A stretch of DNA of 64,000 nt from Thiomicrorhabdus aquaedulcis (lineage in GTDB: Bacteria > Pseudomonadota > Gammaproteobacteria > Thiomicrospirales > Thiomicrospiraceae): the NCBI RefSeq assembly GCF_004001325.1, contig NZ_AP018722.1:2046001-2110000 (forward strand), read 5' to 3'. Below the pieces are notes generated by a model. It was given only the letters and a program-made list of their open reading frames with translations, was not told where the DNA came from and made no database searches. The translations under genes and the position numbers were made by a program. Below, piece after piece: positions 26,466 through 47,527 of this stretch; position 1 is the first letter of the stretch, and each line of letters begins with the position of its first letter.

Positions 26466-27746
26466 TTACGGCGCAGATGCCGTGTCGTGGCACGGCATGA
26501 CGATAGGATGGTTTGCAATAAAACCCAGCAACGCCATGGCTTGTTGGGTTTTGCTGGATGTTGTCAAAGGCTGCTCTTGTGTTGCCGTCATTAACGTTAA
26601 AGCGTTGTGGTCTTGCTCAAACCCCATTTGCTCGCCCGCGTGCTCACCCACTAAATTGGCGCATATCATGTCCAATTTTTTGCTGTGCAACTTACCGCGC
26701 GCGTACTCAAGCACGTTTTGAGTTTCGGCCGCAAATCCGACAACAAAAGGCTTACCTTCTATTTTTGGCTGGCTGGCCACCCACGCCACAATGTCGGGGT
26801 TTTTAACCAAGTGCAACGTCATCTCATCATTATCGGCATTTTTTTTAAGTTTGTGTTGCGCCCACTGCGCCACTCTAAAATCGGCTACCGCCGCCGCACT
26901 GATAAAACAATCGGCGGTTAATGCGTGCGCTTGCACCCATTCAAACATGTGCAGTGCACTGCGAACATTCAATCGATTAACATTTTGTGGCGTCGCCAAA
27001 TTGACCGGGCCGGCAATTAACGTGACTTGTGCACCCGCCTTGGCCGCGACTTGCGCAATCGCAAAGCCCATTTTGCCCGAACTTCGGTTGCCCAAAAACC
27101 GCACCGGATCCAAATCTTCATACGTAGGACCGGCGGTAATCACCAACGATTTACCACGCCAATACGCCGTTAAATCTAACCAGGCCTGGTCATCTTGTGC
27201 TGTGCGTTGCTTTAAATCGTGCTGAAACGCCAACACCGCCTCAAAAATAACCTGCGGTTCGGGCAGTCGCCCTTCGCCCACTTCGCCGCACGCTTGTTCA
27301 CCCAAGCCAGGATTTAACACTGTTAAACCGCGCTGTTTTAGCACCTCAACGTTTTCTTGGGTGGCTGGGTTGTTCCACATTAAACGGTTCATCGAGGGCG
27401 CGAGCATAATCGGTTTTTCGGTCGCCAAACACACGGTGGTGAGTAAGTCATCGGCACGCCCCATGCGCAGTTTGGCCAGGGTTTCGGCACTGGCTGGCGC
27501 AATCACAATCTGATCTGCCCAGCGCGCCAGTTCAATATGCCCCATGCCGGCTTCTTGGTGCGCGTCAAATAAACTGTCGCGCACCGGATGCCCAGACAAC
27601 GCCTGAAACGACAAAGGCGTAATAAACTCTTTAGCACCGGCGGTCATCACCACCTGCACATGATGGCCGGCTTTTACAAATAATCGCGTAAGTTCCAATG
27701 CCTTGTACGCGGCAATGCCGCCGGTAACGCCTAAAAGTATGTTCAT
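26466..27746 (-). CDS. coaBC: Bifunctional phosphopantothenoylcysteine decarboxylase / phosphopantothenate-cysteine ligase
   Basis: 426 residues. CoaC half: ILLGVTGGIAAYKALEL at the N-terminus (FMN site), catalytic His in GHIELARWAD, PSMNRLMWNNPATQ, and ACGEVGEGRLPEP with the active Cys. CoaB half: VITAGPTYEDLDPVRFLGN and RSSGKMGFAIA, then ISAAAVADFR and LKKN. It makes 4'-phosphopantetheine in coenzyme A synthesis. An exact ACCAGGCCTGGT copy (27179) sits in the linker between domains, encoding DDQAWLD. A hexanucleotide run upstream is AT-rich; the start is the family start. Confidence 0.95.
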   Translation of the reverse strand: MNILLGVTGGIAAYKALELTRLFVKAGHHVQVVMTAGAKEFITPLSFQALSGHPVRDSLFDAHQEAGMGHIELARWADQIVIAPASAETLAKLRMGRADDLLTTVCLATEKPIMLAPSMNRLMWNNPATQENVEVLKQRGLTVLNPGLGEQACGEVGEGRLPEPQVIFEAVLAFQHDLKQRTAQDDQAWLDLTAYWRGKSLVITAGPTYEDLDPVRFLGNRSSGKMGFAIAQVAAKAGAQVTLIAGPVNLATPQNVNRLNVRSALHMFEWVQAHALTADCFISAAAVADFRVAQWAQHKLKKNADNDEMTLHLVKNPDIVAWVASQPKIEGKPFVVGFAAETQNVLEYARGKLHSKKLDMICANLVGEHAGEQMGFEQDHNALTLMTATQEQPLTTSSKTQQAMALLGFIANHPIVMPCHDTASAP

Positions 27747-28074
27747 GGTTGTGTGGGTTCTTTTTATGATTTTTTTGTGGTTTTTTTAAGGAACAGCCTT
27801 TGCACGAATAAAACACAACAGAAAAATAAGTACAAACTTATCTGATTGCGACTAAAAATCCAGCCAATTGAAAGCTATTGACAGGTTTTCTAACAAAAAC
27901 CAGATGAATTTTAACCCTTTTTATCCGTGTATTCACGCGTCGCAAAGAGCTTGTTTAAAGTAACGCGGTTTAAAGTTTAAATTCAGCTTTGCTATTTTTC
28001 ATGCGCTCATGATACCCAAATACCAACTTAGCCGCCAAGCTTGGTTCGTTAAACTTAACTCCAAGCGCTTAATT
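27747..28074. other. Gap with no gene: decayed upstream copy of regulator region
   Basis: No reading frame here looks real. An AGCCTTTGCACGA fragment (about 27796) belongs to the AGACCTTTGCA repeat family. From about 27975 the sequence GTTTAAATTCAGCTT matches that at about 38390 upstream of the regulator gene, so this is the left end of the duplicated segment. Confidence 0.55.
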
Positions 28075-28117
28075 ATGTATGCCATTCGTTTTAGTTTTAT
28101 TAATTCGCACTGGAGTG

Positions 28118-28975
28118 TCAACACTTTTTCGTACCTAGATTTTCTTCAATTTCTTTTAGTCGGTCTAGCCTTATTTGCTCGAACTTTGCAGGCGCAATAT
28201 AACCGTTCGAGCTGTGTGGCCTGATGTGGTTGTAGTGCCCCATATATTCCGAAACCAGCCAACGCATTTCTTGTTGGTCGATTAATTTTGTAAGCTGATA
28301 AACGGTTTCTGTTTTGAAAGACTTAAAGAAGCTTTCAATAACGGCATTATCCCAACAATTTCCGCGACGACTCATGCTTTGCTTAATGCCCCAATGGGCA
28401 ATCAGCTTGCGGTAAGCATTACTGATAAATTGACTGCCTTGGTCCGTGTGAACCATCAGTCCTTTTGGTGGTTTACGATTCCACAGTGCTCTTTTTAATG
28501 CGGTTTCGATGAGCTCTGAGCGCATATGCGATTCCAATGCCCATCCGACTACTTTTCTTGAGTAGAGGTCAATGTAGGTGGCCAAGTACATCCAGCCTTG
28601 CTGGGTTTTAACTTGCGTTATGTCACCGACCCATACTTGGTTGAGGTAGCTGACTTTAAACTCCCGTTTGAGTAAGTTTGGCTGTATTTTTGGGTCATTA
28701 ATGGCCGCACTGCTGGCTTTCTTAAACTTCTTACGAGTGTGGACGATTAGGCCTTGTTCTCGCATGATTCGAGCAATCTTACGCCGACTCATCGTCACTT
28801 TCTTTTCGTTGGTTAAATAACCTTTTATGCCTCTTGCTCCTGCATTTCCTTTTAAGATGCCGAAGGTCTCTTTAACCAAATCAGTATTCTCTTTTTGTTC
28901 GGCTGCCTTATCTGTGGGGTCTAATTTTAGCCAGCTATTAAAGCTGCTGACGGGCACGTTTAATACCTTACACAT
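28118..28975 (-). CDS. IS3 transposase, OrfB (integrase catalytic domain)
   Basis: 285 residues with the IS3 HTH_21 region (GARGIKGYLTNEKKVTMSRR) and rve integrase core. DDE residues: Asp in WVGDITQVKT, Asp in MVHTDQGSQF, and Glu in NAVIESFFKSFKTE. In its frame the sequence is open upstream to the OrfA overlap (KYAWIQKHREEFPLVLMCK), which is the normal link region, so the active product should be an OrfAB fusion made by -1 frameshifting. The C-terminus reaches almost to the left inverted repeat. Confidence 0.93.
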   Translation of the reverse strand: MCKVLNVPVSSFNSWLKLDPTDKAAEQKENTDLVKETFGILKGNAGARGIKGYLTNEKKVTMSRRKIARIMREQGLIVHTRKKFKKASSAAINDPKIQPNLLKREFKVSYLNQVWVGDITQVKTQQGWMYLATYIDLYSRKVVGWALESHMRSELIETALKRALWNRKPPKGLMVHTDQGSQFISNAYRKLIAHWGIKQSMSRRGNCWDNAVIESFFKSFKTETVYQLTKLIDQQEMRWLVSEYMGHYNHIRPHSSNGYIAPAKFEQIRLDRLKEIEENLGTKKC

Positions 28976-29022
28976 CAGTACAAGCGGGAATTCTTCTCGA
29001 TGCTTTTGTATCCACGCATACT

Positions 29023-29310
29023 TTATTTCTCGAGACTGGCGAAGTATGCGGTGGCTTTTTTTAAGATGTCTCGCTCCATTTTGGCTTGAGCGAGTTCTTT
29101 TTTAAGCCGTTTATTTTCTTGTTCTAGAGATTCCGAGAGTTTTGGAATCACAGCCAAATCATTTTTAAGTTTATGTGCACGAACCCAAGTGTAAACAACG
29201 GTAACGGGTAACTCATAATCTCTTGCGGCTTGAGCTGAACTTCTTCCACCATTGACGATGGCGTCAATAACTTCTTTTTTAAGTTCAAGGTCGTATTTTG
29301 CATTGGCCAT
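29023..29310 (-). CDS. IS3 transposase, OrfA (HTH protein)
   Basis: 95 residues: an N-terminal helix-turn-helix (YDLELKKEVIDAIVNGGRSS, DYELPVTVVYTWVRAH) and a C-terminal leucine-zipper-like helix (LSESLEQENKRLKKELAQ). Near its end the minus strand has a run of seven A (29056-29062 on the plus strand as T7) in the context TTA AAA AAA GCC. Slipping back one base there moves the ribosome into the OrfB frame, giving HRILRQSREIKYAW, so this is the likely programmed frameshift site. GGAG precedes the ATG. Confidence 0.92.
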   Translation of the reverse strand: MANAKYDLELKKEVIDAIVNGGRSSAQAARDYELPVTVVYTWVRAHKLKNDLAVIPKLSESLEQENKRLKKELAQAKMERDILKKATAYFASLEK

Positions 29311-29477
29311 TTCGGGTCTCCTTTGGATGGTGATTTTATAACATCATCTAGGTACGAAATAGTGTAACCACTCCGCACGTTATGCTTAAGATTTTTACGG
29401 CCATAACCTCTGCGGCCGGCGTGAATTGGTGGCGTTCTTTTTTGAAGACTTATTAATTAGTTAAGACCTTGCAACGC

Positions 29478-30032
29478 TTACTCTTTTTTGCGCGTTGGCC
29501 ACATTCGTATCAGTGTATTGTCTTTTAACACATAATGATTAAACAACGCTGCTGCCACATGTAACGCAATCAGGGCATAACCTATTTGCCCCAACACCTC
29601 GTGCAGATCTTCAAATCGCTCGGCCCACAAGGGGTCTGGAGTAACCAGACTGGGAACATTTAGGCCAAAAAACCAAATGGTTTTGGCCTTGGCGCTGACC
29701 ATAAGCCAACCCGCCAACGGGGTAAAAAACATAAAACCGTATAACGCAATGTGCCCCCAACGCGCGGCGATGGCTTGCATGGCACTGGGTGCAGGGGCAA
29801 TTAAGGGCGTAAGTTGAATCCATTGCAACAATAAACGCACCCCCACTAACCCCAAAATAAGCAAGCCAATGGCGTGATGTAAATTTTTTATCCAAAAACG
29901 CACATCACTCTCTTTGTCAAACATGCCTTTTAATTCAATGCTGCCGTAGGCCAGCACAATCAGTCCAAACATAAGCCAATGTAAGGCTATTGAACTCACG
30001 CCATAATGCGCTCTGGTGTTTTTTAAATGCAT
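29478..30032 (-). CDS. Cytochrome b561 family protein, copy in the decayed duplication
   Basis: 184 residues, four TM helices, with haem-ligand type His in LHWLMFG, NLHHAIG and ALHVAAALFNHY. It differs from the copy at 38996 at about 17 of 184 residues, while the C-terminal third is almost identical. Such proteins pass electrons between quinone and periplasmic acceptors. This is the only intact gene in the duplicated segment at 28-30.6 kb; neighbours that were once beside it are reduced to fragments, so it either has its own role or is too young to have decayed. Confidence 0.85.
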   Translation of the reverse strand: MHLKNTRAHYGVSSIALHWLMFGLIVLAYGSIELKGMFDKESDVRFWIKNLHHAIGLLILGLVGVRLLLQWIQLTPLIAPAPSAMQAIAARWGHIALYGFMFFTPLAGWLMVSAKAKTIWFFGLNVPSLVTPDPLWAERFEDLHEVLGQIGYALIALHVAAALFNHYVLKDNTLIRMWPTRKKE

Positions 30033-30082
30033 CTGTTCTCCTTATATGGCCATTTTAAACAGCCACCTTATATAAACATTTC

Positions 30083-30149
30083 TACTTGCGAAAAAATGTC
30101 GGCAAACAAATTGCCCATCCAATCAAATATATCGCGGTAATATCGGCGA
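30083..30149 (-). pseudogene. Fragment of FccB 3' end
   Basis: This stretch aligns with 39581-39640, the last 20 or so codons of the FccB-like gene (shared AAACAAATTGCCC and ATATCGCGGTA). The stop codon position has changed. Nothing else of the 425-codon gene remains. Confidence 0.7.
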
Positions 30150-30294
30150 TGTTGTTGCGATTCATTTCAAGCGGAACATAGCCTAAATTAGCAACCGATT
30201 GTGAGGGGGGGCACAACCCGTTGTTTTTAGAACGGGTAAAACGACAGCGGCGTCATCATGCGATTGTTTAAATCAGTTTCGTTGGTGGTCATCA
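30150..30294 (-). pseudogene. Fragment of the Asp-rich cytochrome gene
   Basis: Aligns with 41430-41576 of the cytochrome gene (shared GCGATTCATTTCAAGCGGAA, ACGACAGCGGCGT and TTCGTTGGTGGTCATCA), with small changes, one run of seven G, and no signal, haem or stop parts. The join to the previous fragment at ATCGGCGAT removes most of the FccB gene and the C-terminal half of the cytochrome gene. Confidence 0.75.
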
Positions 30295-30297
30295 ATG

Positions 30298-30627
30298 GCA
30301 TGCGCCGAGCAGGTAAACCTTCTTTATTACTTTACGCCGTTAACACTCTACGACAATCTATTGCGGTTAAAAAATACTCTCTCTTAGCTTTGACGACGAA
30401 TGTTTAAAATGTGCAAGCCAAAGATTTGAAGCTGATTTTGTAAGCCTATCAAGAACTTTATCCTGAACTGGATTTAAGCCAATGTTATTTATTTTTGGAT
30501 GAAATCTAAGAAATCAATGGCTAAAAAAGGTTATCCAAAGTTGTTATTCAACGTTGCTATTCAACGTTGCTATTCAACTTTGCGATTCAACGTTTGAATC
30601 GCGTCATCAGTCGGGTTGCTCAATTTA
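30298..30627 (+). pseudogene. Fragment of the DUF4143 ATPase gene
   Basis: Aligns with about 46317-46580, from the Walker A region (GGCATGCGCCGAG) through TCCTGAACTGGATTTAAGCC (Walker B region) to GCGTCATCAGTCGG. The reading frame is broken by stops and indels, and a tandem repeat interrupts it at 30541-30592. The 5' and 3' ends of the gene are absent. Confidence 0.75.
30541..30592. repeat. Four 13-bp tandem repeats
   Basis: Four consecutive units close to TTGCTATTCAACG (30541, 30554, 30567, 30580), each with at most two changes. They sit inside the dead ATPase fragment and have no counterpart in the intact gene. Confidence 0.85.
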
Positions 30628-30633
30628 AAACAC

Positions 30634-31023
30634 CTAAGCCTGCAGCAAACTTTCTAAATGCGGCGAAGCCATGGGGCGACCTTGCTCGTTTACCGCCACA
30701 CCCAGGGTTTTGGCGCTTACAATCAAGCGGTTATCGGTTTGGTGGTAAATGTTTTGCACAAAGGCGTATTGAATGCGCGAGAGTTTTTGCACGGCCACCG
30801 TAACGTAAAAATCGTCTTGCGATTTAAGCGGTTTTTTGTAGTCAATTTCAACGCGCAACACCATTAAGTTAATGCCCGCGTGCGCTAACGCCGCAAAGTC
30901 TACGCCGTTGGCCAATAAAAACTCATGGCGCGCGTGTTCTAAATAATTTTGATAGACGCTGTTGTTAACGACTTTTTGCAAATCGCATTCGTAATCTCTT
31001 ACCCGCATGGTGTACGTAAACAT
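30634..31023 (-). CDS. Acyl-CoA thioesterase, YbgC/4-HBT family
   Basis: 129 residues, one hotdog fold. VRDYECDLQKVVNNSVYQNY holds the position of the catalytic Asp seen in 4-hydroxybenzoyl-CoA thioesterase types (Asp in the DxQxVVNN segment), followed by EHARHEFL. It should hydrolyse a short acyl-CoA; the substrate is not shown. It is divergent from radC with only 71 bases between start codons, and its 3' end lies 7 bases from the ATPase fragment. Confidence 0.85.
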   Translation of the reverse strand: MFTYTMRVRDYECDLQKVVNNSVYQNYLEHARHEFLLANGVDFAALAHAGINLMVLRVEIDYKKPLKSQDDFYVTVAVQKLSRIQYAFVQNIYHQTDNRLIVSAKTLGVAVNEQGRPMASPHLESLLQA

Positions 31024-31094
31024 ATTAATTTTACCTGTGTTTTAATTTGAGGTTATAGTGTTGGCATTGTGTTGTTTTGCATAGGAGTGCGCAC

Positions 31095-31775
31095 ATGGCC
31101 ATTACCGATTGGCACGAAAACGATCGACCGCGTGAAAAATTGCTTAAATTTGGTCCGCACAGTTTAACCGATGCCGAATTGCTGGCGATTTTTTTACGCG
31201 TGGGCATTAAAGGCAAAAGTGCGGTGCATTTGGCGCAAGATTTATTAGACTATTTTGGCAGTTTGGACGCGCTGTTAAAAGCCGACCAAACTACTTTTTG
31301 CCAAGCGAAAGGCCTGGGCGAGGCCAAATACGTGCAAGTACAAGCCATTTTAGAGATGTCGCAACGCCATTTTAAAGCGCAGTTGCAACACGGCCAAGCC
31401 ATGACCCAACCCGAAAGTGTGGCGCGCTATTTAAGCCATCAACTGGGATTTGAGCACCGTGAGCAATTTGTGGTGCTGTTGCTAGACCAACAACACCAAT
31501 TAATTCACACCCAAACCCTGTTTGTGGGCACGCTTAACCAAGCCACCATCCACCCGCGCGAGGTCTTAAAAGTCGCTTTAGACCATCACGCTGCGGCGGT
31601 TATATTAGCCCACAACCATCCATCGGGCGACCCCACGCCCAGCGCCGCCGACCACCGTTTAACCCAACTGCTGGTAAACGCGCTAAGCTTGGTGGACATT
31701 AGAGTGCTTGACCACTTTATTTTAGGCGACAGCGGGCGCTGGCATTCGTTTGCTCAACAGGGGCAAATGCCTTAA
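31095..31775 (+). CDS. radC: RadC/JAB-domain DNA repair-associated protein
   Basis: 226 residues from ATG 31095 (AGGAG 9 bases upstream; the frame opens at 31077). N-terminal helix-hairpin-helix-like region ([16 protein letters not shown]) and the C-terminal JAB/MPN domain: [17 protein letters not shown]-like [12 protein letters not shown], and the metal motif [15 protein letters not shown]. The name is historical; the biochemical role of RadC is uncertain, although a metalloprotease-like fold is conserved. Confidence 0.93.
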
Positions 31776-33777: not shown

Positions 33778-33833
33778 ATTTCTCTCCTTGGTAAAACCAA
33801 ACGTAACATCACTAAACTAAGCGTCCATAACCC

Positions 33834-34906
33834 TTAAAAATCGTATCGCGCACCCAAAACCAAAGCGTGACCGTTTGATTGCGTTTGATACCCTCCTAGC
33901 GGGTTAAACTCTTCGGAATCTGGCGTGTAAATGGCGTAACTGTTTTCTTCATAAAAATACTCAACAAACACTTTAAACGCTTTGGTGTATTGATAATCGA
34001 CCCCAAGATGGTAAGAAGAACCTATAAAAATGCATCGGCTTCATCATTTTTACCGGCTTTACCATCGCCTTTAGACACCATGGCTTTAAACGTATAGTCG
34101 TTTAAAGTATATGAACCATACAAATTGGCCACCATTGGATTGGCATTTTGCACAACCGTATGATGCGATTGCAATTGCTCTACTTTAGTAGCAAACCGCC
34201 AAGCACCGCTGTGATAAGAGCCCGACACCCCAAGTAAATTAGCGCGTTCGTCATGGCTGTCTTGATACGCCAGCGCCAGTTGAACCCCTTGGTGTTGATA
34301 CGACAATGCTGTTTGCAAAGTATCTAAATAGGCGGTGCCCGCGCCATCGGTCATATCAACGCCTGACACGGTTAACTGCACGCCGTTTAATGGCGGTGTT
34401 GTGTACGTGAGTGCTTCACGGCGAAAGGTTGCGTGGGTGGCAAATCCAGAATAAAACGAGCTAAAATAATCGACCGGATAAGCGATGTTATTGTAATAAG
34501 CCAACCATTGATTGCCCAAAGCCAAAGAGCCCCACTGGTCGCTTGACGCGGTTATTTTAGCGATGCGTGGCCCGTTATTTTCTTTATAAAATCCTTGAAA
34601 AAACGACGGATCTTGCGCTTGCATTTGCGCCACATCCAACGGAAACTCTAAGACCGCGCCCAGTTGCACGCCATTGTCTAAGAGGTAATTGGCCTGAACC
34701 CCAAGCCGAGAGTACGCATCTCGCAAGCCGTTGTAATGATTGTCTTCACCGGCTTGCGCCTTATCGACCACTACCGACTCGGCTTGAACACGCAAAGAAC
34801 CATAAGGGGTGAGCGTTAATTCGGCAAACGCGGCTGTTGCGCCACTTAAGCCAAACAAAAAAATCAGAGCAGAAACTAAAAATGCAGTACCAAAAAATTT
34901 TGACAT
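33834..34906 (-). pseudogene. Outer membrane porin, single frameshift
   Basis: 357 residues when the frame is repaired. Signal peptide ending TAAFA, then a beta-barrel of the gram-negative porin type: LTLTPYGSLRVQAES, SRLGVQANYLLDNG, GSLALGNQW, FRREALTYTTP. The frame stops after DEADAF because the coding-strand T run (34026-34030 on the plus strand as A5) is one base short; adding one T continues FIGSSYHLGVDYQYTK to a terminal RYDF, the usual C-terminal Phe of barrels. As written it would lack two or three strands. It lies upstream of the BCCT gene on the same strand, which suggests a shared osmolyte-uptake role. Confidence 0.87.
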
Positions 34907-35164
34907 AAGCCGTCCTTTTGAGTTTAAAAAAACGCGCTATTTTAAAAAAATTAAGCAGGCTGACCTTTTCAACCGTAACACACCCCGCCTACCTTATCAA
35001 ATAGGCTTAATGCCAAAATTAAGCACTATTATTAAATTAATAAGCTCATAAACTGATTACAACACCGTTGTACCGGCTGGCGTTTAAAGTGGCTAATGAC
35101 CGGCTAATATTAACGTCACACAACCAGCTCAAGTTGGTAAACTAGTGCCCTTTAAAGCCTATGG

Positions 35165-37462: not shown

Positions 37463-38320
37463 GTGTTAAAGCGCCTGCCTGTCTTGGCACGCTCTTGGTT
37501 AAACGTGTCGTGGTTAAATCTGTCTTGGTTTAGCTTTATTTGGCTAAGCTTTATCTTGGCGATTTACCTAAGTTGGTTTGCGTTGGCGCAGGTCAACTTT
37601 TTGTACCCCATCTGGTATGAATACGCAGGCATTAAACAAAACATAGAACAATTTGCACCGCAAAATCAATACCGAAAACACTTTGAGCACACCGACGATG
37701 CCACCCGAAAAACCTTGTTTGCCTGCATCGTGCAGGCCATTCGTCAAGGTGATCATGAAGGTCAAGGTCAAGACAATCCAAGCAATCCAAGCAATCCAAG
37801 CAATCAAACCGACCAAAGTTTGCGTCAATTACATTACCAAGTAACCTTGCCTAGCGTGTTTGCTCCGGTAACGCTGCACGTGCCGTTGTTGCACAACGCC
37901 GAAATTACCCATTTAACCGACGTGGCCAATCTTATTAGCCGGTTAAAAACTGTCGGTCTTGCGCTGTTAATGGCCTGGAGCGCGCTGCTGTTAGGGCTGC
38001 TTTGGCGCAACACGCCTTTTGTGAGCCAACGCACGGTATGGCTTAATGTGGCGCTCGGATTAGGCGCAATCGGCTTGCTGGTGAGCGCTTTAGGCGCAAA
38101 AACCGTGTTTTACCAACTGCACGTTTGGGTGTTTCCGCCCCAACATCCGTGGTTTTTTTACTACCAAGACTCGCTCATGAGCACCTTAATGAAAGCCCCC
38201 GACCTGTTTGCCTACATTGGTGCGACGCTGTTAATGGTCGCTTTACTGCTGTTTAGCGCACTCACCTTCGTCCTGCGCGCGCTGTTTAAACGCCTTAAAA
38301 CGCGCCCAAAAACGCTTTAA
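37463..38320 (+). CDS. DUF1461 integral membrane protein
   Basis: 285 residues, four TM segments (about 25-47, 165-185, 195-215, 250-275). The pattern FYQLHVWVFPPQHPWFF followed by DSLMSTLMKAPDLF matches DUF1461 / TIGR01906 membrane proteins; function unknown. An Asn-Pro-Ser tripeptide repeat from a 9-bp tandem repeat (37775-37801) lies in the periplasmic loop. GTG 37463 starts 7 bases after mnmH, so it may be cotranscribed. A 20-bp palindrome follows its stop. Confidence 0.75.
   Translation: MLKRLPVLARSWLNVSWLNLSWFSFIWLSFILAIYLSWFALAQVNFLYPIWYEYAGIKQNIEQFAPQNQYRKHFEHTDDATRKTLFACIVQAIRQGDHEGQGQDNPSNPSNPSNQTDQSLRQLHYQVTLPSVFAPVTLHVPLLHNAEITHLTDVANLISRLKTVGLALLMAWSALLLGLLWRNTPFVSQRTVWLNVALGLGAIGLLVSALGAKTVFYQLHVWVFPPQHPWFFYYQDSLMSTLMKAPDLFAYIGATLLMVALLLFSALTFVLRALFKRLKTRPKTL
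37775..37801. repeat. 9-bp tandem repeat, three units, in DUF1461 gene
   Basis: Three exact copies of AATCCAAGC encode repeated Asn-Pro-Ser and keep the reading frame. Unit number could vary between strains. Confidence 0.85.
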
Positions 38321-38335
38321 CCAGGCCTGGTTAAA
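38316..38335. terminator. 20-bp perfect palindrome centred on ACCAGGCCTGGT
   Basis: The core (38320-38331) is extended by TTTA/TAAA, overlapping the last codon of the DUF1461 gene. It is a likely terminator for the selD-mnmH-DUF1461 transcript. An AGACCTTTACAC relative of the other repeat family follows at about 38354. Confidence 0.75.
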
Positions 38336-38468
38336 CCCTAAAAAGCAATTAAATGAGACCTTTACACGGTAATAAACTCTAAATTCAGTTTAAATTCAGC
38401 TTGGTTCATTATGATAAGTCTCTATTCTTAACCGGTTTAATCGTCACATTCAATTGGGAGAACACGGC

Positions 38469-38969
38469 ATGCACGCCATTCGCTTTAGTCTTGTTATTTT
38501 TAGCTTAATTTTTACCATCGCCCTGACCGACATTGTCTACGACTGGGAAGAAGCGGGCGCGATTGATTCGCACGTGATGGTTGAGATGTTTATGGCCATG
38601 GCCTCGTTGGTGGCGTTTGTGGTGTTAATGCGGTGTATGTGGCTGGACAAAAAAGCCTTAAAAGAGTCCGCGCAACGTTTATCGTCGGCCAAAAGAGCGT
38701 TAAGTGCGGCCGAACATCAAACTCAAAAACTCATGGGGGATTTTTCTAAAATTATTCAGGCGCAATTAACCGACTGGCAATTTACCCAAAGCGAAAAAGA
38801 GGTGGCGTTGTTGCTGTTAAAAGGCTTAAGCCTAGAAGAGATTGCGGTGGTACGCGAAACCAAAGAGAAAACCGTGCGCCAACAAGCGTCCAATTTGTAT
38901 AAAAAAGCCGGCGTCTGTGGCCGGCATGAATTGGTGGCGTTCTTTTTTGAAGATTTGTTAATAGATTGA
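38469..38969 (+). CDS. Membrane-anchored LuxR-type (GerE) regulator
   Basis: 166 residues from ATG 38469 (GGGAG upstream; TTG 38454 would add five). Two N-terminal hydrophobic segments (about 4-20 and 35-55), a coiled coil (about 58-90) and a C-terminal LuxR-type helix-turn-helix: FTQSEKEVALLLLKGLSLEEIA, then TVRQQASNLYKKAGV. There is no receiver domain, so the signal must come through the membrane part or a partner. It precedes the convergent cytochrome b561 and sulfide dehydrogenase genes. A broken copy lies at 28.1-29.5 kb. Confidence 0.75.
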   Translation: MHAIRFSLVIFSLIFTIALTDIVYDWEEAGAIDSHVMVEMFMAMASLVAFVVLMRCMWLDKKALKESAQRLSSAKRALSAAEHQTQKLMGDFSKIIQAQLTDWQFTQSEKEVALLLLKGLSLEEIAVVRETKEKTVRQQASNLYKKAGVCGRHELVAFFFEDLLID

Positions 38970-38995
38970 GATCGTTACACGAAACCGTTACACAT

Positions 38996-39550
38996 TCACT
39001 CTTTTTTGCGCGTTGGCCACATTCGTATCAGTGTATTGTCTTTTAACACATAATGATTAAACAACGCTGCTGCCACATGTAACGCAATCAGGGCATAACC
39101 TATTTGCCCCAACACCTCGTGCAGATCTTCAAATCGCTCGGCCCACACAGGGTCTGGGGTAAACAGGCTGGGAACATTTAGACCAAAAAACCAAATGGTT
39201 TTGGCCTTGGCGCTGACCATAAGCCAACCCGCCAACGGGGTAAAAAACATAAAAACGTACAACGCAATGTGCCCCCAACGCGCGGCGATGACTTGCCTAA
39301 CACTGGGTTCGGGGGTAATTAAAGGGGTAAGTTGAATCCACTTTAGCCCCAATCGCACCCCCACCAATCCCAAAATAAGCAAGCCAATGGCGTGATGTAA
39401 ATTTTTTATCCAAAATCGCACCTCACTCTCTTTGTCAAACGCGTCTTTTAACTCAATGCTGGCGTAGGCCAGCACAATCAGACCAAACATAAGCCAGTGC
39501 AACGTCATTGAACTCACGCCGTAATGCGCGCTGGTGTTGTTTAAATGCAT
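38996..39550 (-). CDS. Cytochrome b561 family protein
   Basis: 184 residues with four TM helices; haem-ligand His candidates in LHWLMFG (about 18), NLHHAIG (about 52) and ALHVAAALFNHY (about 158-165). It follows fccB on the same strand by 27 bases, so it is probably the last gene of an fccA-fccB-b561 transcript. A di-haem b-type protein could link the periplasmic sulfide dehydrogenase to quinone; FCSD normally donates to soluble c cytochromes, so this is inference. The homologous gene at 29.5 kb is about 90% identical in protein. Confidence 0.88.
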   Translation of the reverse strand: MHLNNTSAHYGVSSMTLHWLMFGLIVLAYASIELKDAFDKESEVRFWIKNLHHAIGLLILGLVGVRLGLKWIQLTPLITPEPSVRQVIAARWGHIALYVFMFFTPLAGWLMVSAKAKTIWFFGLNVPSLFTPDPVWAERFEDLHEVLGQIGYALIALHVAAALFNHYVLKDNTLIRMWPTRKKE

Positions 39551-39577
39551 TTAATGTCCTTTTAACCCCTTCTTGAC

Positions 39578-40855
39578 TTACGCAAATGTGTCAGAAAACA
39601 AATTGCCCGCCCAGTTAAACATATCGCGGTAGTTATCGGCAGACGGCGCTTCTGAGGCGGGATAACCCACCCCTGGCACCAACTCCATTTGTTGACTGAT
39701 GCTGTTGTACTGATACACCGCCGTTAACCACGACGCCGTATTAGACGAGATAGGACTATAACAGGCCGAGTTGGTTTTGGGGGCACTGTCGAGTGGAAAG
39801 TTATTTAAGGTTCGCAAAATAGCGTCAGCACAGACTTTGGCTTGCGAATTACCCATGTGCCCCGCTTTGGGTTGCCCGGTGCCCTGACTGTCGCCAATAA
39901 TGTAAATGCCCGTTGCCCCCGCAACGGTTGACTCATAACTAAGTGGATTAATGGGCGCCCAATTGCCACTGTTTACCCCAGCGGTAAAAATAAGCGGCGC
40001 CGCCTTTTGGTTGGGAATCACATTTAAGACTTTTGCGCTTAACGTTTGGTTGGCCGCACCACTCACACTGTAGGTGACGCTCTTTGTTGCTGAGTTAACC
40101 GATTGCACCACCGCATTGGGCACATAGGTTATGCCGTAGCTGGCAAACGCCGCACTGAAGGTGAGTTCTTCAATGGTAATGCCTGGGTTTGCGTCCAGCA
40201 CCGTGACGGTGCAATTGCTTAAGCCTTTGCTTTTAAGAAAGTCGGCCACCACGCAGGCGCGCTCATAAGGTCCAGGTGGGCAGCGATACGGGGCGGCGGG
40301 CACGGTCATGACAAACGCATCGCCATCGACCATGGTGTCTAATTGTGCTTTTAACAAATTGGTTTGCACCCCCGCCTGCCAGGCGTGCGGCACTTGGTCA
40401 AAATCGTGCCCGGGTGCGGCCACAAAATCAATGCCGGGGGCAAGCACCAAACGGTCGTACGCTATGCTTTGTCCGTTTGATAAAGTAAGGGTTTTAGCGG
40501 TTTTATCCACATTTGTGACGGTGGCGTGCACCATTTTTACCGCATAACGCTGATGGTGGTTTAAATACCCAAAACTCAATCCAGCGGTAGTTTTTTGTTC
40601 ATTTAAGACCAAATTACTTAAAATAGGCGACACGTAAGTTGGGTTGGGCTCAATTAAGGTCACTTGCACCCCTAACCCGCCCCACATTTTTAAATATTTG
40701 GCGGCGGTAGCGCCGGAAAAACCGCCCCCCACCACCACAACGTGAGGCACGGTGGCGGCACGCGCCACACCGGGCAATAAACTGGGCACCAAGGCAAACG
40801 CCCCTCCCAGACCCAAAGCTTTTAATACCGTTCTGCGTGAAAATTTGGTTGTCAT
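39578..40855 (-). CDS. fccB: Sulfide dehydrogenase (flavocytochrome c) flavoprotein subunit, FccB-like
   Basis: 425 residues. Twin-arginine signal (SRRTVLKALGLGG), FAD-binding HVVVVGGGFSGATAAKYL near residue 37, and the FCSD hallmark YRCPPGPYERACVV near 193. A Cys near the C-terminus (NSACYSP) could complete the redox disulfide known in FCSD. C-terminal GIYIIGDSQGTGQPKAGHMG is the second FAD region. It oxidises sulfide in the periplasm and passes electrons to a c-type cytochrome, here encoded 12 bases upstream. The gene is one of several lines of evidence for a sulfur-oxidising host. Confidence 0.92.
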   Translation of the reverse strand: MTTKFSRRTVLKALGLGGAFALVPSLLPGVARAATVPHVVVVGGGFSGATAAKYLKMWGGLGVQVTLIEPNPTYVSPILSNLVLNEQKTTAGLSFGYLNHHQRYAVKMVHATVTNVDKTAKTLTLSNGQSIAYDRLVLAPGIDFVAAPGHDFDQVPHAWQAGVQTNLLKAQLDTMVDGDAFVMTVPAAPYRCPPGPYERACVVADFLKSKGLSNCTVTVLDANPGITIEELTFSAAFASYGITYVPNAVVQSVNSATKSVTYSVSGAANQTLSAKVLNVIPNQKAAPLIFTAGVNSGNWAPINPLSYESTVAGATGIYIIGDSQGTGQPKAGHMGNSQAKVCADAILRTLNNFPLDSAPKTNSACYSPISSNTASWLTAVYQYNSISQQMELVPGVGYPASEAPSADNYRDMFNWAGNLFSDTFA

Positions 40856-40867
40856 GGTTATTCCCCT

Positions 40868-41926
40868 TTAATCGTCATTGTCGTCGTTGTCGTCATCATC
40901 GCCGTCGTCCCCAGAACTACTGGGTTGCGCCATGAGCCAGCTGCTCATGGCGGCAATTTCGGCGGCGGTGTAACCGTGGGCTTGTGCGGTCATAATGGCG
41001 GCATCGTCCAATATTTCGCGGGCTAACTCATCACCCTCGTCGGTAATGCTGTCCCAACCAGTCACCGAACGACCGTTGGTGCCGTGACATTGCGCACACT
41101 GCGACACCAATAAACGCCCAGTGCTTAAGGTGTAGTTTTGCACCGATGCGGCCACCACGGTAGTGGGATGGTCGTCAGCGTCGTAATCGTCGTCTATGCC
41201 ATCGTCGTCACTGTCGTGATCATCGTCTTCGTCTTCATCATTCGTACCGTCGCCATCATCATCGTCGTCTTCACGGTTAAAACGGCCGTCGTTATCGTCG
41301 TCCTCGTACACATTAGGAATGCCATCGCCATTAGTATCTAAAAGGTCAAACGAGACCGCTTTTACGGTCATGCCAGCGGCACTGGGCACCGCAAGCGGCG
41401 CGTCGGTCACGCCGTCGTTGTTGGCATCGATGATATTGTTGCGATTCATTTCAAGCGGAACATAGCCTAAATTGGCGGCCGATTGCAGGGTAAACAAACC
41501 GCTGCTTTCGGTACTGGTAAACGACAGCGGCGTAATCACGCGATTGTTTACATCGGTTTCGTTGGTGGTCATCACCAAGCGGCAATCTAGGTTGCTGGGT
41601 AGGTTTAAGGTAAAAGGGTGCTGTGCGGTGCCGTTGTTGGTCGAACTGACTTTGTAATACGCGCCATTGGCGCAAAAGGCCTCAATTAACGTGCCCGGAA
41701 CCGTACCGCTAATGCTGGCGGTCGTCGGCAGAGGAACGACTGGATCGGTTACCGGATCGTTCGAAGAACCGCCACCGCCACAACCGCTTAATAACAGCGC
41801 GGCACACAACGTGGACAAAGCCCAAGGGGCATGGCTCTGGAAAGAGCGAGTTTGAGTGTTATGTTTAACAACCCGTCCGCAATGCAAACGGTTTAAATTT
41901 TTACGTATTTCAGGCATCTGGCTCAT
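40868..41926 (-). CDS. Asp-rich c-type cytochrome lipoprotein, FccA-like partner
   Basis: 352 residues. Signal with lipobox LLLSGCGGGG, an Ig-like region, then a calcium-type Asp-rich repeat region (DTNGDGIPNVYEDDDNDGRF and following DDDGDGTNDE units, about 195-260), and a C-terminal monohaem domain with CAQCHG near residue 282, with a Met later (AAMSSWLMA) as a candidate sixth ligand. The tail ends in another run of Asp and Asn. It lies just upstream of fccB, where fccA is expected. Normal FccA is a small one- or two-haem cytochrome without these extensions, so partner assignment is inference from position and haem. Confidence 0.8.
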   Translation of the reverse strand: MSQMPEIRKNLNRLHCGRVVKHNTQTRSFQSHAPWALSTLCAALLLSGCGGGGSSNDPVTDPVVPLPTTASISGTVPGTLIEAFCANGAYYKVSSTNNGTAQHPFTLNLPSNLDCRLVMTTNETDVNNRVITPLSFTSTESSGLFTLQSAANLGYVPLEMNRNNIIDANNDGVTDAPLAVPSAAGMTVKAVSFDLLDTNGDGIPNVYEDDDNDGRFNREDDDDDGDGTNDEDEDDDHDSDDDGIDDDYDADDHPTTVVAASVQNYTLSTGRLLVSQCAQCHGTNGRSVTGWDSITDEGDELAREILDDAAIMTAQAHGYTAAEIAAMSSWLMAQPSSSGDDGDDDDNDDNDD

Positions 41927-42104
41927 GTTGGACTCCTTAACTATGCGCTAAATTTTTGAACCTTATGCACAACCTTGACGACTCAAGTGGTTCAAATTTA
42001 TCGCTAGCGTAAAGTGTCAAACGGCGCATTAAAAGTGGGCAAATGTCTTTTGGGACATATGCCCTAGGCTTTGTAAGCCTTATAAACCAAGATAAATCAA
42101 AGCA

Positions 42105-42116
42105 ACCAGGCCTGGT
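42105..42116. repeat. ACCAGGCCTGGT palindrome after the sensor kinase gene
   Basis: Exact copy in the gap between the kinase stop (42150) and the cytochrome gene, both minus. The remainder of the gap (41927-42149) has no gene and probably carries the fcc promoter. Confidence 0.8.
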
Positions 42117-42149
42117 CAGTCGCATTTGGGCACAACCATTCACCCAATA

Positions 42150-43607
42150 CTACATCGTAGGCAAAAACACCTTGGCCACTGTTCCGCTAGGCTTTTGTTG
42201 AGATGGGCAAGTGCCCGCAGTGCAATGCGATTGCAAACGCACTTGCCAGCCATTGGCGTTAGCCAACGCCTTAACCACCGCCAAGCCCAATCCGCTGCCG
42301 CCCGTGTGCGTGTTGCGCGAACGTTCTAGACGATAAAACGCTTCAAACACCTGCTCTAATTCGTGCGCGGGAATGCCTGGACCTAAATCGGCTATGGCAA
42401 TTTGCCAGCCATTTTGCCGGCCATTGTTAACCCAGTTTAGTGCAACGGTAATGGGTTGATTGGGCGCGTAGCGCAACGCGTTGTCCAACAAGTTAGACAA
42501 CACCCGCTTAAGCGCCAAAGCGTTGCCCTCCCAAAAGGTTGGCGCGTCCATGCAAGGCTTAAAAACAATCTGTGAAGACGTGCCATACGGTTCTAACCAG
42601 GCCTGCACAAACGCATTTAAATCGCATTGATCTATTAAATGGCGGCTTTGAGTCACATCACGACCCAAATCGACAAACTCGCCAATGAGTTGATTCATTA
42701 ACGTTAAATCTCGGGCAATCGACTCAACCAATCCCGCTGGTGTGCTGCTGGGCAACAGCTCTAGCGCCAACTGCAAACGGGTAAGTGGCGTGCGTAAATC
42801 ATGCGACACGCCGCTTAACAACACCGTGCGTAAGTGCAGCGCGCGCGCCTCATTGTGCAACAGTTGGCCAATGGCTTGGCTTAGGCGCATTAACTCATCA
42901 CTGATGTTGAACGACTCTTTTGGCCAAACGGTGGAAGGGTTTTGCTGTTTGCGCGCGTCCAATTGCGCCACCATGCGCGCCAGCGGTTGAGTCATATTGC
43001 GCACCACCCAAACCGACACCGCCAACGCCAGCACCACACTCAACGCCAACAGCAACAAACCCAGCTTGGGCAAACCCTGACCAAAATGTTGCTGGGCTAT
43101 GCCTAACTGCAAGGTGTGACCGGCTAAAGAAATCGTTGTCCAATACTCAAACGGCGCATCGGGTGGCGCGTTGGGGTCAAAAGACCAAACAACAGGTTGA
43201 TTAAATTGGCGCGTTAAGGCCTCGGCACTCCAGCGCAAAAAGGGTTTGCTCGACGCATTTAAAGGGGCGTTTGCGGCCAGAGCACTGGCAACACGCAATT
43301 GCACGCCGTGCTTTAGCGCCAGCTCGGCTGCAAAATCGGCGCGTGCATTGGGTGGCAACTCTACCCAAGTTTTAACGCTTAAGGCCATAAACGCGGCTTG
43401 ATCGAGGGCGTTTTTTTCGGCCATGGGTTTTACCACCGCTAAAAACAGCACGCCCACCAACAAGGCGGTAAACCCCAGCATTACGCCGGTTAAACGCAGG
43501 GCGATATTAAAAAACAGGGTATTGGGCAAGCGGGCTAACAACCGTTTAAATCCTTTTATAAAAACCCGATTGACCAGGCCTGGTTTACACATCCAAACGG
43601 TAGCCAA
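42150..43607 (-). CDS. Sensor histidine kinase (EnvZ-like)
   Basis: 485 residues. TM1 at about 35-58, a periplasmic domain, TM2 at about 182-205, HAMP, HisKA with VSHDLRTPLTRLQLALELL near residue 272, then the ATPase domain with N box LLDNALRYAP, G1 DLGPGIPAHE and G2 GGSGLGLAVV. It overlaps the 3' end of the response regulator gene by 23 bases. An exact ACCAGGCCTGGT copy (43573) encodes KPGLV near the N-terminus. The likely targets are the neighbouring fcc and peroxidase genes, but this is inferred from position. Confidence 0.9.
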   Translation of the reverse strand: MATVWMCKPGLVNRVFIKGFKRLLARLPNTLFFNIALRLTGVMLGFTALLVGVLFLAVVKPMAEKNALDQAAFMALSVKTWVELPPNARADFAAELALKHGVQLRVASALAANAPLNASSKPFLRWSAEALTRQFNQPVVWSFDPNAPPDAPFEYWTTISLAGHTLQLGIAQQHFGQGLPKLGLLLLALSVVLALAVSVWVVRNMTQPLARMVAQLDARKQQNPSTVWPKESFNISDELMRLSQAIGQLLHNEARALHLRTVLLSGVSHDLRTPLTRLQLALELLPSSTPAGLVESIARDLTLMNQLIGEFVDLGRDVTQSRHLIDQCDLNAFVQAWLEPYGTSSQIVFKPCMDAPTFWEGNALALKRVLSNLLDNALRYAPNQPITVALNWVNNGRQNGWQIAIADLGPGIPAHELEQVFEAFYRLERSRNTHTGGSGLGLAVVKALANANGWQVRLQSHCTAGTCPSQQKPSGTVAKVFLPTM

Positions 43608-44271
43608 CGCCGCGCACGGTGCGCAAATGCTCTGGGCGTTCGGGATGGGTTTCTAATTTGCGTCGCAGACGGGTAATGCGCACGTCCATGGCGCGGTCAA
43701 ACGGCCCGCGCTCATAGCCTTGCAACTGGCTGACCAGCACGTCGCGGCTGACCACTTGGTTGGGGGATTGCAACAGTAAACTAAGTAAATCGGCTTCGCC
43801 TTGCGTGAGTGCGCAGGTTTGACTTGAATTTGGCTGAATTAAGCGCAGTTTATCGGCGTCAAAAAGCCATGCACCAATGCGGGGCAAGTTGGGTTTAGTC
43901 GCAGACGATTCTGTGTTGCGGCGCAGTAACGCGCGCAATCTTGCCACCAGTTCACGCGGGTTAAACGGTTTGGCCATGTAGTCGTCGGCGCCCACTTCTA
44001 ACCCCACAATACGGTCAATGTCGTCGCCCAACGCCGACAGCATCAACACCGGAAAAACATAGTTTAAGCGCAGGTTTCTTAAAATAGACAATCCGTCCAG
44101 GCCTGGCAACATCACATCCAAAATAAGGCAATCGGGTGTGCGCAACGCCAGAAGCTCGTCTAACGCTTGAGCGTGCTGTGCGGCCCTCACTTCAAACCCT
44201 TGCAGGGTTAAATAAGCGCTTAACAGCTCAACAATGCCTGCGTCGTCTTCGACCAAAAAAATTAACGGCAC
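43585..44271 (-). CDS. OmpR-type response regulator
   Basis: 228 residues from GTG 44271. Receiver domain with VEDDAGI, phosphorylatable Asp in LILDVMLPGLDG near residue 53, and Lys in YMAKPFNPRE; C-terminal winged helix with FDRAMDVRITRLRRKLE and VRGVGYRL. The frame is open further upstream to 44619 but that part is not family-like and has no good start. No strong Shine-Dalgarno marks the GTG, so the exact start is uncertain. It is first in a two-gene transcript with the kinase and divergent from a small secreted protein gene. Confidence 0.9.
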   Translation of the reverse strand: MPLIFLVEDDAGIVELLSAYLTLQGFEVRAAQHAQALDELLALRTPDCLILDVMLPGLDGLSILRNLRLNYVFPVLMLSALGDDIDRIVGLEVGADDYMAKPFNPRELVARLRALLRRNTESSATKPNLPRIGAWLFDADKLRLIQPNSSQTCALTQGEADLLSLLLQSPNQVVSRDVLVSQLQGYERGPFDRAMDVRITRLRRKLETHPERPEHLRTVRGVGYRLDV

Positions 44272-44467
44272 GGTAGCAGCATAAATAGAAATGTCCTTTG
44301 AAAAGTGTCTTGCGGTATTGTGCCCTGTTAGCCCGCGCCTTGTAAACGCGCTGTAACACTTTGTTACAAAACCCAACCCCGCTGAAACCCATTGAAACCA
44401 CTTTAAAAACACCCAAGCCGCATACTGCAGGGCGTTAACACACGTTGAGTTTAAAAAGGCACGCACT

Positions 44468-44776
44468 ATGAAACAGCATCGGTTATTACGCCACGCACTT
44501 TGGATCAGTACTTTGGCACTTTTAATGGTCAGCAAACCGGTTTGGGCGCAAGAAGCGCACACCCAACAAAATCTGCAAAACCAATGGGGGCCACAACAAC
44601 CCAGCCCCAGCGTACCCAATCCACTGATTTACGGCACGCCCAGCACATCCACTGCCCCGTCGCTAGGTGGGTTTGGCCAGGGTTATGAACAAAGGCAACA
44701 GCAAACTAAACAAAAACAACCATCGTCACAACACACCAAAGGCTCAGGGTCAAAACGTGCGCAATCGCCGTATTAA
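44468..44776 (+). CDS. Small secreted Gln/Pro-rich protein
   Basis: 102 residues, not recognised. Signal peptide ending VWAQE, then a low-complexity region rich in Gln, Pro and Ser with GGFGQGYEQRQQQTKQKQP. No domain seen. It stands between the divergent response regulator gene and the peroxidase gene and may be transcribed with the latter (32 bases apart). AGGCACGCACT lies before the ATG. Confidence 0.55.
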   Translation: MKQHRLLRHALWISTLALLMVSKPVWAQEAHTQQNLQNQWGPQQPSPSVPNPLIYGTPSTSTAPSLGGFGQGYEQRQQQTKQKQPSSQHTKGSGSKRAQSPY

Positions 44777-44808
44777 TCCTGTGTCAAGCACTTAAAAAAG
44801 GAATCCTT

Positions 44809-46011
44809 ATGCACGTTAAAACTACGCCAAAATGGCGCATTACCGGCGCTTTTATCGCCTTCGCCGCCGCAAACTTAGTGGGTTGCGGCGGAGGTACAAC
44901 CAACGACGCACCGGCCAGAATATCGCCGGCCAATGTAGACCCTGTGGCCGCAGCCGCATTGGGCGAATTGCTGTTTAACGACCCAAATTTATCGTTAACA
45001 CGTCAGCAGTCGTGTGCCACGTGCCATAACGCCGAGCATGGTTTTATCGACAATCGTCCCAACTTTTTAAACTCGGCAGTCTCATTGGGTGACGATGATG
45101 CGTCTTTGGGCACGCGCAATGCGCCTACGGTGGCGTATGCGGCGTTTATTCCGCTGTTTGCACAAGGCGCAGACGGCCAATATTTGGGTGGACAGTTTCA
45201 CGATGGACGGGCTAAAAATTTAGGCGCGCAAGTGAATTTAAACGGCGGCCCCATTTTAAACCCGGTTGAGATGATGATGCCCGACCAGGCCACAGTCATT
45301 GCCCGTCTACAAGAAAACCCCGATTATGTGGCCAAATTTACCACGCTGTTTGGTGCCGATGTGTTTTCAAGAAACGATACCTTTATCTTTAATCGCATTG
45401 GTCAATCGATTGCCGCCTATGAGAAAACAGCCCTCTTTAGTCCATTTGACTCAAAATACGACCGCTACTTGCAAAGCGCCTACACCCTAACCGACACCGA
45501 AACCTTAGGCTTACAACTGTTTAACCAACACTGCGTGCAGTGCCATCAATCGCAAGCCACAACGGGTGTCAACCAAGAAGTGTTTAGCAACTTTAAATAC
45601 TACAATTTGGGCGTGCCCAACCATCAAGCGGTCAGAGACGCCGTGGGCGATCCATCGGCCGACCCAGGTTTAATGGGCAACCCCAATGTAAACAACGACC
45701 CGCTACTGGCCGGAAAGTTTAAAACCCCCACACTGCGCAATGTGGCGATTACCGGGCCTTACATGCACAATGGCGTGTTTCAAGACTTACGCACCGTGCT
45801 GCAATTTAAAGATCATCGCCGCATCATCAACAACGCCGAGCGTACCATTAACCCTGAAACCGGCCTAGCCTGGTCAGACACCGATTACACCGACACCGTG
45901 GATTACAGCAACGCGCCGGCCTTAAGCGACAGCGACATTGACGCCCTAATGGCCTTTTTACCCCTGCTTACCGACGCCCGCTACGAAGCCTTATTACCAG
46001 GCACGCCCTAA
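44809..46011 (+). CDS. Di-haem cytochrome c peroxidase family lipoprotein
   Basis: 400 residues. Lipobox NLVGCGG; two haem motifs SCATCHNAEHGF near residue 66 and QHCVQCHQ near 242, with FHDGRA and NPVEMMM typical of the bacterial CCP/MauG family, and FKTPTLRNVAITGPYMHNGVF near the C-terminus. Family members reduce peroxide or oxidise protein side chains in the periplasm; which applies here cannot be told. A GGAATCC precedes the ATG. It lies in the redox region near the FccB, b561 and di-haem lipoprotein genes. Confidence 0.88.
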   Translation: MHVKTTPKWRITGAFIAFAAANLVGCGGGTTNDAPARISPANVDPVAAAALGELLFNDPNLSLTRQQSCATCHNAEHGFIDNRPNFLNSAVSLGDDDASLGTRNAPTVAYAAFIPLFAQGADGQYLGGQFHDGRAKNLGAQVNLNGGPILNPVEMMMPDQATVIARLQENPDYVAKFTTLFGADVFSRNDTFIFNRIGQSIAAYEKTALFSPFDSKYDRYLQSAYTLTDTETLGLQLFNQHCVQCHQSQATTGVNQEVFSNFKYYNLGVPNHQAVRDAVGDPSADPGLMGNPNVNNDPLLAGKFKTPTLRNVAITGPYMHNGVFQDLRTVLQFKDHRRIINNAERTINPETGLAWSDTDYTDTVDYSNAPALSDSDIDALMAFLPLLTDARYEALLPGTP

Positions 46012-46062: not shown

Positions 46063-46194
46063 AAATACATGGCAGGGCGATCCGCTTAGACAAGTTGCTT
46101 AGACAAATTGTTTAGACAGATTTGAACCGTGGGCTTGCACCAAAGCCTTAAAACTGTCTTTACATAAAATACAATTTGCAGTAAATTGTCGTTT

Positions 46195-47487
46195 ATGAAT
46201 ACAAAATCACTCTTTAAACAACTCATTGCGGACTTTCATGCCGCACCGATACGCCCATTAATGACGCGAGATGTGGTGTTGCCACTGGATATTGAAAAAA
46301 TTGTGGTCGTCACTGGCATGCGCCGAGTGGGTAAAACCTCTTTACTGCTTAACGCCATCGAGACTCTGCGGCAATCCGTTGCGGTTCAAAAAATACTCTA
46401 TCTTAGCTTTGAAGACGAACGTTTAAACGTGCAAGCCGAGGACTTGGATCTAATTTTGCAAGCCTATCGAGAGCTTTATCCTGAACTGGATTTAAGCCAA
46501 TGTTATTTCTTTTTTGATGAAATCCAAGAAATCAGCGGCTGGGAAAAGTTTATCCGACGTTTGGATGACGCCATCAGTCGGCACATTTATTTAACCGGCT
46601 CCAACTCCAAGCTTCTTAGTTCAGAAATTGCCACCTCCTTGCGCGGCCGTTGTTTGAGTTTTGAGGTCTTTCCACTAAGTTTTGGCGAGTTTTTACGCTT
46701 TAAAAACATTGCCCCAGACCTGATTAGTTCTAAGGGCCGAGCGTTGATCGGTTTAGAGTTTGAACGCTATTTAATACAGGGCGGATTTCCGGAGTTGGTC
46801 AACATTGAATCAAGTGAAATTCGCCGCAAAATTATTCAGGATTACTACGATGTCATGTTGTTTCGTGATGTCATTGAACGCTATCAAGAAAGCAATATTC
46901 CAGCCCTCAAATATTTTTTAAAACGGGTTTTAGAAAGTGTGTCCAGCTCGCTCTCGATTGCAAAAATCCATAACGAGATGAAATCGGCTGGTTTTAAGGT
47001 GGGCAAAAACAGTCTGCACGATTATTTAGCCATGAGCGAAGCGGTTTACTTTACGGTCATCGCCAGTAAATTCGATCCATCTATTGTGCGACAAACGATG
47101 GCTGAAAAAAAAGGCTATATCATCGACAACGGATTTTTAACCCAACTTAGCTTTCGATACCAACACGATTACGGCAAATTGCTTGAAAATTTAGTGGCGA
47201 TTAGTCTGCGTCGCCAAGACCCCAATGTGCATTTTATTAAGGGCGTGCAAGAGTGTGATTTTGTATTATCCACTGCAAAAGGTCTTTTGCCCGTGCAAGT
47301 TGCTTACGACCTGAGCCACCCAGACACCTTAGCGCGCGAGCTAAAAGGATTGGTCAAAGCCGCGCAATTTTTGAATGCATCAGCCGGAATCATCGTCACA
47401 CTCAACGAAGAGCGCACCTTGATACATCACGGTATTAACGTAACCATCTTAAGTGCTTGGCAATTTTTATTAACAGAACTGAATTAA
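46195..47487 (+). CDS. AAA-type ATPase with DUF4143
   Basis: 430 residues from ATG 46195. Walker A VVVTGMRRVGKTSLLLNAI near residue 37, Walker B YFFFDEIQEISGWEKFI near 100, sensor-like LTGSNSKLLSSEIATSLRG, then the DUF4143 C-terminal domain (SRRKIIQDYYDVMLFRDV-like start, and LENLVAISLRR). Such genes are abundant, often acquired by transfer, and of unknown role. Inverted repeats with degenerate palindrome cores lie on both sides (46033 and 47511). A dead partial copy is at 30.3-30.6 kb. Confidence 0.85.
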   Translation: MNTKSLFKQLIADFHAAPIRPLMTRDVVLPLDIEKIVVVTGMRRVGKTSLLLNAIETLRQSVAVQKILYLSFEDERLNVQAEDLDLILQAYRELYPELDLSQCYFFFDEIQEISGWEKFIRRLDDAISRHIYLTGSNSKLLSSEIATSLRGRCLSFEVFPLSFGEFLRFKNIAPDLISSKGRALIGLEFERYLIQGGFPELVNIESSEIRRKIIQDYYDVMLFRDVIERYQESNIPALKYFLKRVLESVSSSLSIAKIHNEMKSAGFKVGKNSLHDYLAMSEAVYFTVIASKFDPSIVRQTMAEKKGYIIDNGFLTQLSFRYQHDYGKLLENLVAISLRRQDPNVHFIKGVQECDFVLSTAKGLLPVQVAYDLSHPDTLARELKGLVKAAQFLNASAGIIVTLNEERTLIHHGINVTILSAWQFLLTELN

Positions 47488-47510
47488 ACGTTAACACGCG
47501 TCAAAACACG

Positions 47511-47527
47511 CTTTGACCTGGTCAAAG
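47511..47527. repeat. Inverted repeat, shrunken palindrome
   Basis: CTTTGACC and GGTCAAAG around a single T, the same arms as the 22-bp palindrome at 11928 but with the central AGGCC lost. It lies just after the ATPase gene. Confidence 0.65.

Follow-up and report, generated by a model that had tools for sequence, protein, structure and literature searches.

Fragments of a sulfide-oxidation-type gene cluster in its putative ancestral slot, and an intact copy about 10 kb away, in Thiomicrorhabdus aquaedulcis

The window, by which is meant the whole stretch of 64,000 nucleotides of Thiomicrorhabdus aquaedulcis DNA that was analysed, contains two copies of a cluster of sulfide-oxidation-type genes, standing about 10 kb apart. 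One copy, at 38.45–47.49 kb, has an intact regulator, cytochrome b561, FccB, Asp-rich cytochrome and AAA_14/DUF4143 ATPase. The other, at 27.97–30.61 kb (here called the remnant), is a series of collinear, same-orientation fragments of the 38.4–46.6 kb cluster, 80–97% identical to it. Apart from an insertion sequence (IS), a cytochrome b561 gene is the sole open gene of the remnant. Which of the two copies is the original, and why is one gene of the broken copy still open?

The intact copy begins with a LuxR-type regulator (38454..38969, plus strand; Pfam GerE). On the minus strand follow the second copy of the cytochrome b561 gene (38996..39550), FccB, the flavoprotein of flavocytochrome c sulfide dehydrogenase (39578..40855), the Asp-rich cytochrome c (40868..41926), which has homologues in relatives, and a histidine kinase and response regulator (42150..44619). 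A di-haem peroxidase (CCP_MauG; 44809..46011) and the ATPase (46186..47487) are on the plus strand. In translation, the cytochrome gene contains a long Asp-rich DxDxDG-type stretch (41138–41341) before a CxxCH haem site, and this stretch resembles calcium-binding repeats.

Comparison of positions 27001–31500 with the window by blastn gave three non-self matches, all with E <= 1e-34: 38914–39640 (85%), 41426–41574 (84%) and 46303–46561 (83%). After removal of the IS, eight segments can be chained, all alike in order and orientation, with E-values of at most 7e-11 for the four longest, 4e-7 for the middle of the regulator, and 0.005, 0.016 and 0.05 for the three shortest. The first-pass annotation had claimed that the fragments keep the gene order and orientation of the genes at 38–47 kb, and that one segment is present twice, one copy being without most of its interior. 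The eight segments agree with the former claim, and blastn and the chain together uphold the latter. Better matches at other loci had been proposed as the refuting observation; a search of the own genome (2,537,035 bases in two contigs) found no further match to the remnant beyond 38–47 kb. Being homologous to, and collinear with, an intact copy elsewhere in this genome, and having deletions, stops, frameshifts and an IS in its dead genes, the remnant is a pseudogenised paralogous segment.

The remnant starts with the upstream region and first part of a dead LuxR-type regulator (27974..28110, plus strand). Here, 27974–28002 corresponds to 38387–38415 (weakly, E 0.05), 28075–28105 to 38469–38499, and 28099–28110 to the start of 38562–38605. 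The latter segment continues at 29379–29410, within the rest of the regulator (middle and C-terminus; 29375..29466, plus strand), whose end matches 38914–38971. The segment at 29409–30046 corresponds to 38914–39564 and includes the b561 gene. Next are a 3' fragment of FccB (30084..30147, minus strand; 80% to 39576–39640), a fragment of the Asp-rich cytochrome c (30142..30294, minus strand; 83–85% to 41426–41574), and a fragment of the ATPase (30285..30542, plus strand; 83–85% to 46303–46561) with three in-frame stops and frameshifts. The ATPase fragment is interrupted by a tandem expansion of a 13-bp unit (30532..30594, 4.8 copies), after which the match resumes (30585–30614, corresponding to 46552–46581), so it runs on to about 30614.

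The first-pass annotation described this state as a collapse, but the decay was piecemeal, as comparison with the intact copy shows. The regulator has lost about 62–69 nt and 308 nt in two internal deletions independent of the IS. The remnant is also without 1.8 kb between FccB and the cytochrome (39641–41425 of the intact copy) and 4.7 kb between the cytochrome and the ATPase (41575–46302). These at least four internal deletions are accompanied by the IS insertion, the 13-bp expansion and the loss of the ATPase 3' end past about 46581 of the intact copy. At the four internal deletion joints the segments overlap by 7, 2, 6 and 10 nt, as expected for deletions at short repeats, which are a candidate mechanism. 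The dead fragments of the ATPase, cytochrome and FccB differ from the intact genes with dS of 0.29–0.38 and dN of 0.14–0.21 (ratios 0.37–0.54) and contain stops. This would be the expected pattern of one free and one constrained branch.

The dead regulator is split by an IS3-family insertion sequence of 1,264 bp (28111..29374, minus strand). The regulator ends on both sides of this interval were correctly recognised in the first-pass annotation, but the element between them was overlooked. It has the usual properties of the family: two ORFs (orfA, 29023–29310, and orfB, 28118–28975, both minus strand), a transposase with the Pfam domains rve and HTH_21 found in the element, inverted terminal repeats and a short (3–4 bp) target repeat. 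Nothing in it is unusual for IS3-family insertion sequences. The target repeats, GCAC on both sides, are perfect, and the intact regulator has a single GCAC at the matching place (TTCGCACGTG), so the element simply inserted into a gene that was already homologous. Two more full copies, about 100% identical and with other flanks, are at C1:1939269–1940535 and C1:917536–918805, and the three near-identical full copies suggest recent activity. The IS was considered as the carrier of the duplication and rejected: it lies within the broken regulator, flanked by a target repeat of its own, and the two other full copies are far from the intact cluster.

The surroundings of the two copies are informative about which one is older. 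The remnant is placed between coaBC (26466..27746, minus strand) and a thioesterase gene (4HBT; 30634..31023, minus strand). The intact copy is placed between a gene here called 37463x (37463..38320, plus strand) and phoX. In relatives, the following order is seen in whole or in part: coaBC, regulator, (b561), FccB, cytochrome, (MscS-type channel), thioesterase, radC, 37463x, phoX. The coaBC homologue adjoins the regulator, FccB and cytochrome cluster, the thioesterase has homologues, and 37463x adjoins radC and phoX; 37463x and phoX are neighbours in several relatives (e.g., G018, G025, G027 and G008). An FccB ortholog (63–72% identity) is present in 17 relatives, and it lies 1.1–8 kb from the thioesterase in 15 of them. 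The two exceptions are G007, whose contigs end in the region, and G012, where FccB has moved. One relative, G015, has coaBC, regulator, b561, FccB, cytochrome, thioesterase and radC, which is the exact gene order of the remnant minus the ATPase. Based on the FccB phylogeny, the intact copy in the window belongs among the FccBs of the coaBC site, with those of G016 and G007 (support 0.91), apart from a second FccB paralog.

The remnant thus occupies the genus-wide slot between coaBC and the thioesterase, and the intact copy splits genes that are neighbours in relatives. These facts indicate that the fragments are the decaying original and that the cluster has, for practical purposes, been relocated. 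The polarity proposed in the first-pass annotation, in which the fragments are a collapsed duplicate of the 38.4–46.6 kb region, is therefore reversed by the synteny of relatives: it is the remnant that holds the ancestral slot, whereas the derived one belongs to the intact copy. In G012, too, a regulator-FccB-cytochrome cluster has been relocated (L190, G012 C188, 2156–4290), and coaBC directly adjoins the thioesterase. Several relatives have radC next to 37463x; in the window the two are separated by genes for a BCCT transporter, a porin, selD and selU (31801–37455), which on gene order would be a second lineage-specific gain beside the relocated cluster. The closest congener thioesterase is only 79% identical in protein, so among the congeners there is no sister strain or species near enough to date the event. 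For b561, the best match among the 84,980 species searched was 50%, and hence gave no sister locus for dating.

How much of the cluster stood in the old slot? Among the 22 congeners searched, nothing matched the ATPase better than at 29% over a short part of its length, and the gene was apparently acquired. Since its fragment lies beside the thioesterase, and since it is without a good congener match, the old slot held the ATPase before the two copies parted. This lineage-specific gene alone proves the extended form at the right end of the collapsed copy. The first-pass annotation supposed a duplicated segment of about 8 kb. The ATPase was indeed once in the collapsed copy, but the kinase, response regulator and peroxidase fall within the stretch spanned by the deletion between the cytochrome and the ATPase, so their former presence there is no more than possible. 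Matches to the peroxidase and kinase across the genus are scattered or weak (31% is the best genus match of the kinase) and give no help for the ancestral arrangement.

The intact b561 gene of the remnant (29478..30032, minus strand) encodes 184 amino acids. It differs from the second copy at 44 of 555 nt, has no stop, and shows a dN/dS of 0.22. Where outgroups allow a call, the residue changes are split 5/5 between the copies. Nonsynonymous change in its N-terminal half (15/197) is lower than that in the dead fragments (46/349, p 0.049). Purifying selection on the remnant b561 is supported by these comparisons. That this gene is also dead and still unbroken by chance is doubtful. The gene has lost the rest of its operon, and no promoter ahead of it is convincing (in the promoter and terminator scan, counts were at or below those of shuffles), but 184 codons without a stop or frameshift stand beside heavily broken fragments, and a dN/dS of 0.22 with changes shared equally by the copies would not be expected of a dead gene. 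A b561 without FccB in the corresponding slot of T. arctica (G027) also speaks for a living gene. There, b561 is the only gene of the cluster, flanked by coaBC and an MscS-type gene (L065, 7631–8245); the slot showed no trace of the regulator, FccB or cytochrome, nor did the genome contain an FccB ortholog. T. arctica can be read as a parallel, b561 having outlived its cluster there too.

Selection on b561 may be only part of the matter. The 3' halves of the two copies are 97% identical, and synonymous divergence drops sharply within the gene, as in gene conversion: synonymous changes are found at 18/55 in the first 84 codons and at 5/67 in the rest (p 4.5e-4, Fisher). The boundary at codon 84 was picked after the repeat match had been seen, so this p-value is optimistic; the fairer test is a change-point shuffle of codons, which reached a change-point of such size twice in 5000 trials. 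Compared with relatives, both halves of the window b561 copies are conserved to about the same degree (0.44–0.54 versus 0.46–0.51), which makes a conversion tract a better explanation of the drop than constraint alone. When relatives are compared with one another, the C-terminal half is somewhat more conserved, and markedly so in one pair (69% versus 85%). We infer gene conversion between the copies in the 3' half of b561, and C-terminal constraint may explain part of the identity.

Taken as a whole, the remnant is probably the pseudogenised original of a segment that was duplicated into the slot between 37463x and phoX, where the new copy stayed functional and the old one decayed. This explanation starts from the observed homology, order, orientation, ancestral synteny and decay. 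The original cluster, regulator-b561-FccB-cytochrome(-...-ATPase), would have been located in the slot bounded by coaBC and the thioesterase. Duplication of the segment in this lineage would have placed a copy about 10 kb away, between 37463x and phoX, and this new copy would have kept the function. The old copy would then have decayed by successive deletions, some of them at short repeats, by point mutations, by the 13-bp expansion and by the IS3 insertion. Only b561 would have stayed open in it, through purifying selection and through recombination with the other copy that refreshed its 3' half.

As for the route, tandem duplication and reciprocal loss is suggested as the leading mechanism. 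The block cluster-thioesterase-radC-37463x would have been duplicated in tandem; the second thioesterase, the second radC and most of the second 37463x would then have been lost, together with the decay of the first cluster. The operon could move in this way without a transposase. A possible tail of the second 37463x is present between the ATPase and phoX (47484..47521, plus strand; 80% to 38286–38325, E 0.002). This resemblance of 38 nt is short, and its part before a terminator-like palindrome is equalled in 1 of 2000 shuffles and also by two unrelated sites in the window. The palindrome, TTTAACCAGGCCTGGTTAAA, is at 38316–38335, and near variants recur across the window; it is perhaps a common terminator type. 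The full scenario is proposed tentatively, as possible rather than probable: the operon would have relocated through tandem duplication with reciprocal loss, no mobile element taking part, and the b561 of the old copy would have stayed alive and been homogenised through gene conversion.

The chief rival is that the intact copy is a xenolog from a sister species with the ATPase-bearing form, and that the resident copy decayed afterwards. The dS of 0.3–0.4 between the copies is of the size of a between-species distance, and neither the kinase nor the ATPase gene in the derived slot has a close match in the genus. Yet no integrase or transposase is seen in the ORF listing between 37463x and phoX, FccB is no closer than about 72% to that of any sampled species, and the possible 37463x tail behind the intact copy fits a local tandem duplication better. 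We consider this origin unlikely. Far less probable still is an original at 38.4–46.6 kb with the fragments as its later, collapsed duplicate, for although the fragments match this region alone and only the intact copy has all genes, the fragments stand where the genus ancestrally keeps the cluster, the intact copy parts genes neighbouring in relatives, and the original would have had to be lost, the cluster moved to the new site and a copy returned exactly to the old one.

Operon positions in bacteria shift over evolution. To our knowledge, the intermediate state of such a relocation is seldom observed. Under the preferred reading, the remnant as a decaying original, the event itself is a real but ordinary pseudogene fossil. 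Its value is that of a legible intermediate of operon relocation, with a single gene outlasting its operon: both slots and the products of decay are readable, and with them the deletion joints and the divergence of each segment. It also corrects a trap, as an intact copy need not be the original.

Tandem duplication-random loss is known mainly from the rearrangement of mitochondrial genomes (e.g., PMC4223735 and PMC3283314). Literature joining duplication-random loss with bacterial operons was represented by a mitochondrial review, and among the top matches of the broader literature, by title and abstract, none was on bacterial operon relocation by this route. The present locus shares with the mitochondrial cases a segment doubled in the same orientation, the putative loss of different genes from each copy, and a net change of gene order. 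It differs in being on a bacterial chromosome and in that the second halves with the thioesterase and radC are gone, save perhaps the 38-nt tail; here the model is a candidate. With the other FccB (flavocytochrome c sulfide dehydrogenase) clusters of Thiomicrorhabdus, the locus has in common a regulator, FccB and a cytochrome, at times joined by b561, in the slot from coaBC to the thioesterase. Unlike them, the window has a relocated intact copy with a two-component system, a peroxidase and an ATPase, and its original slot has decayed.
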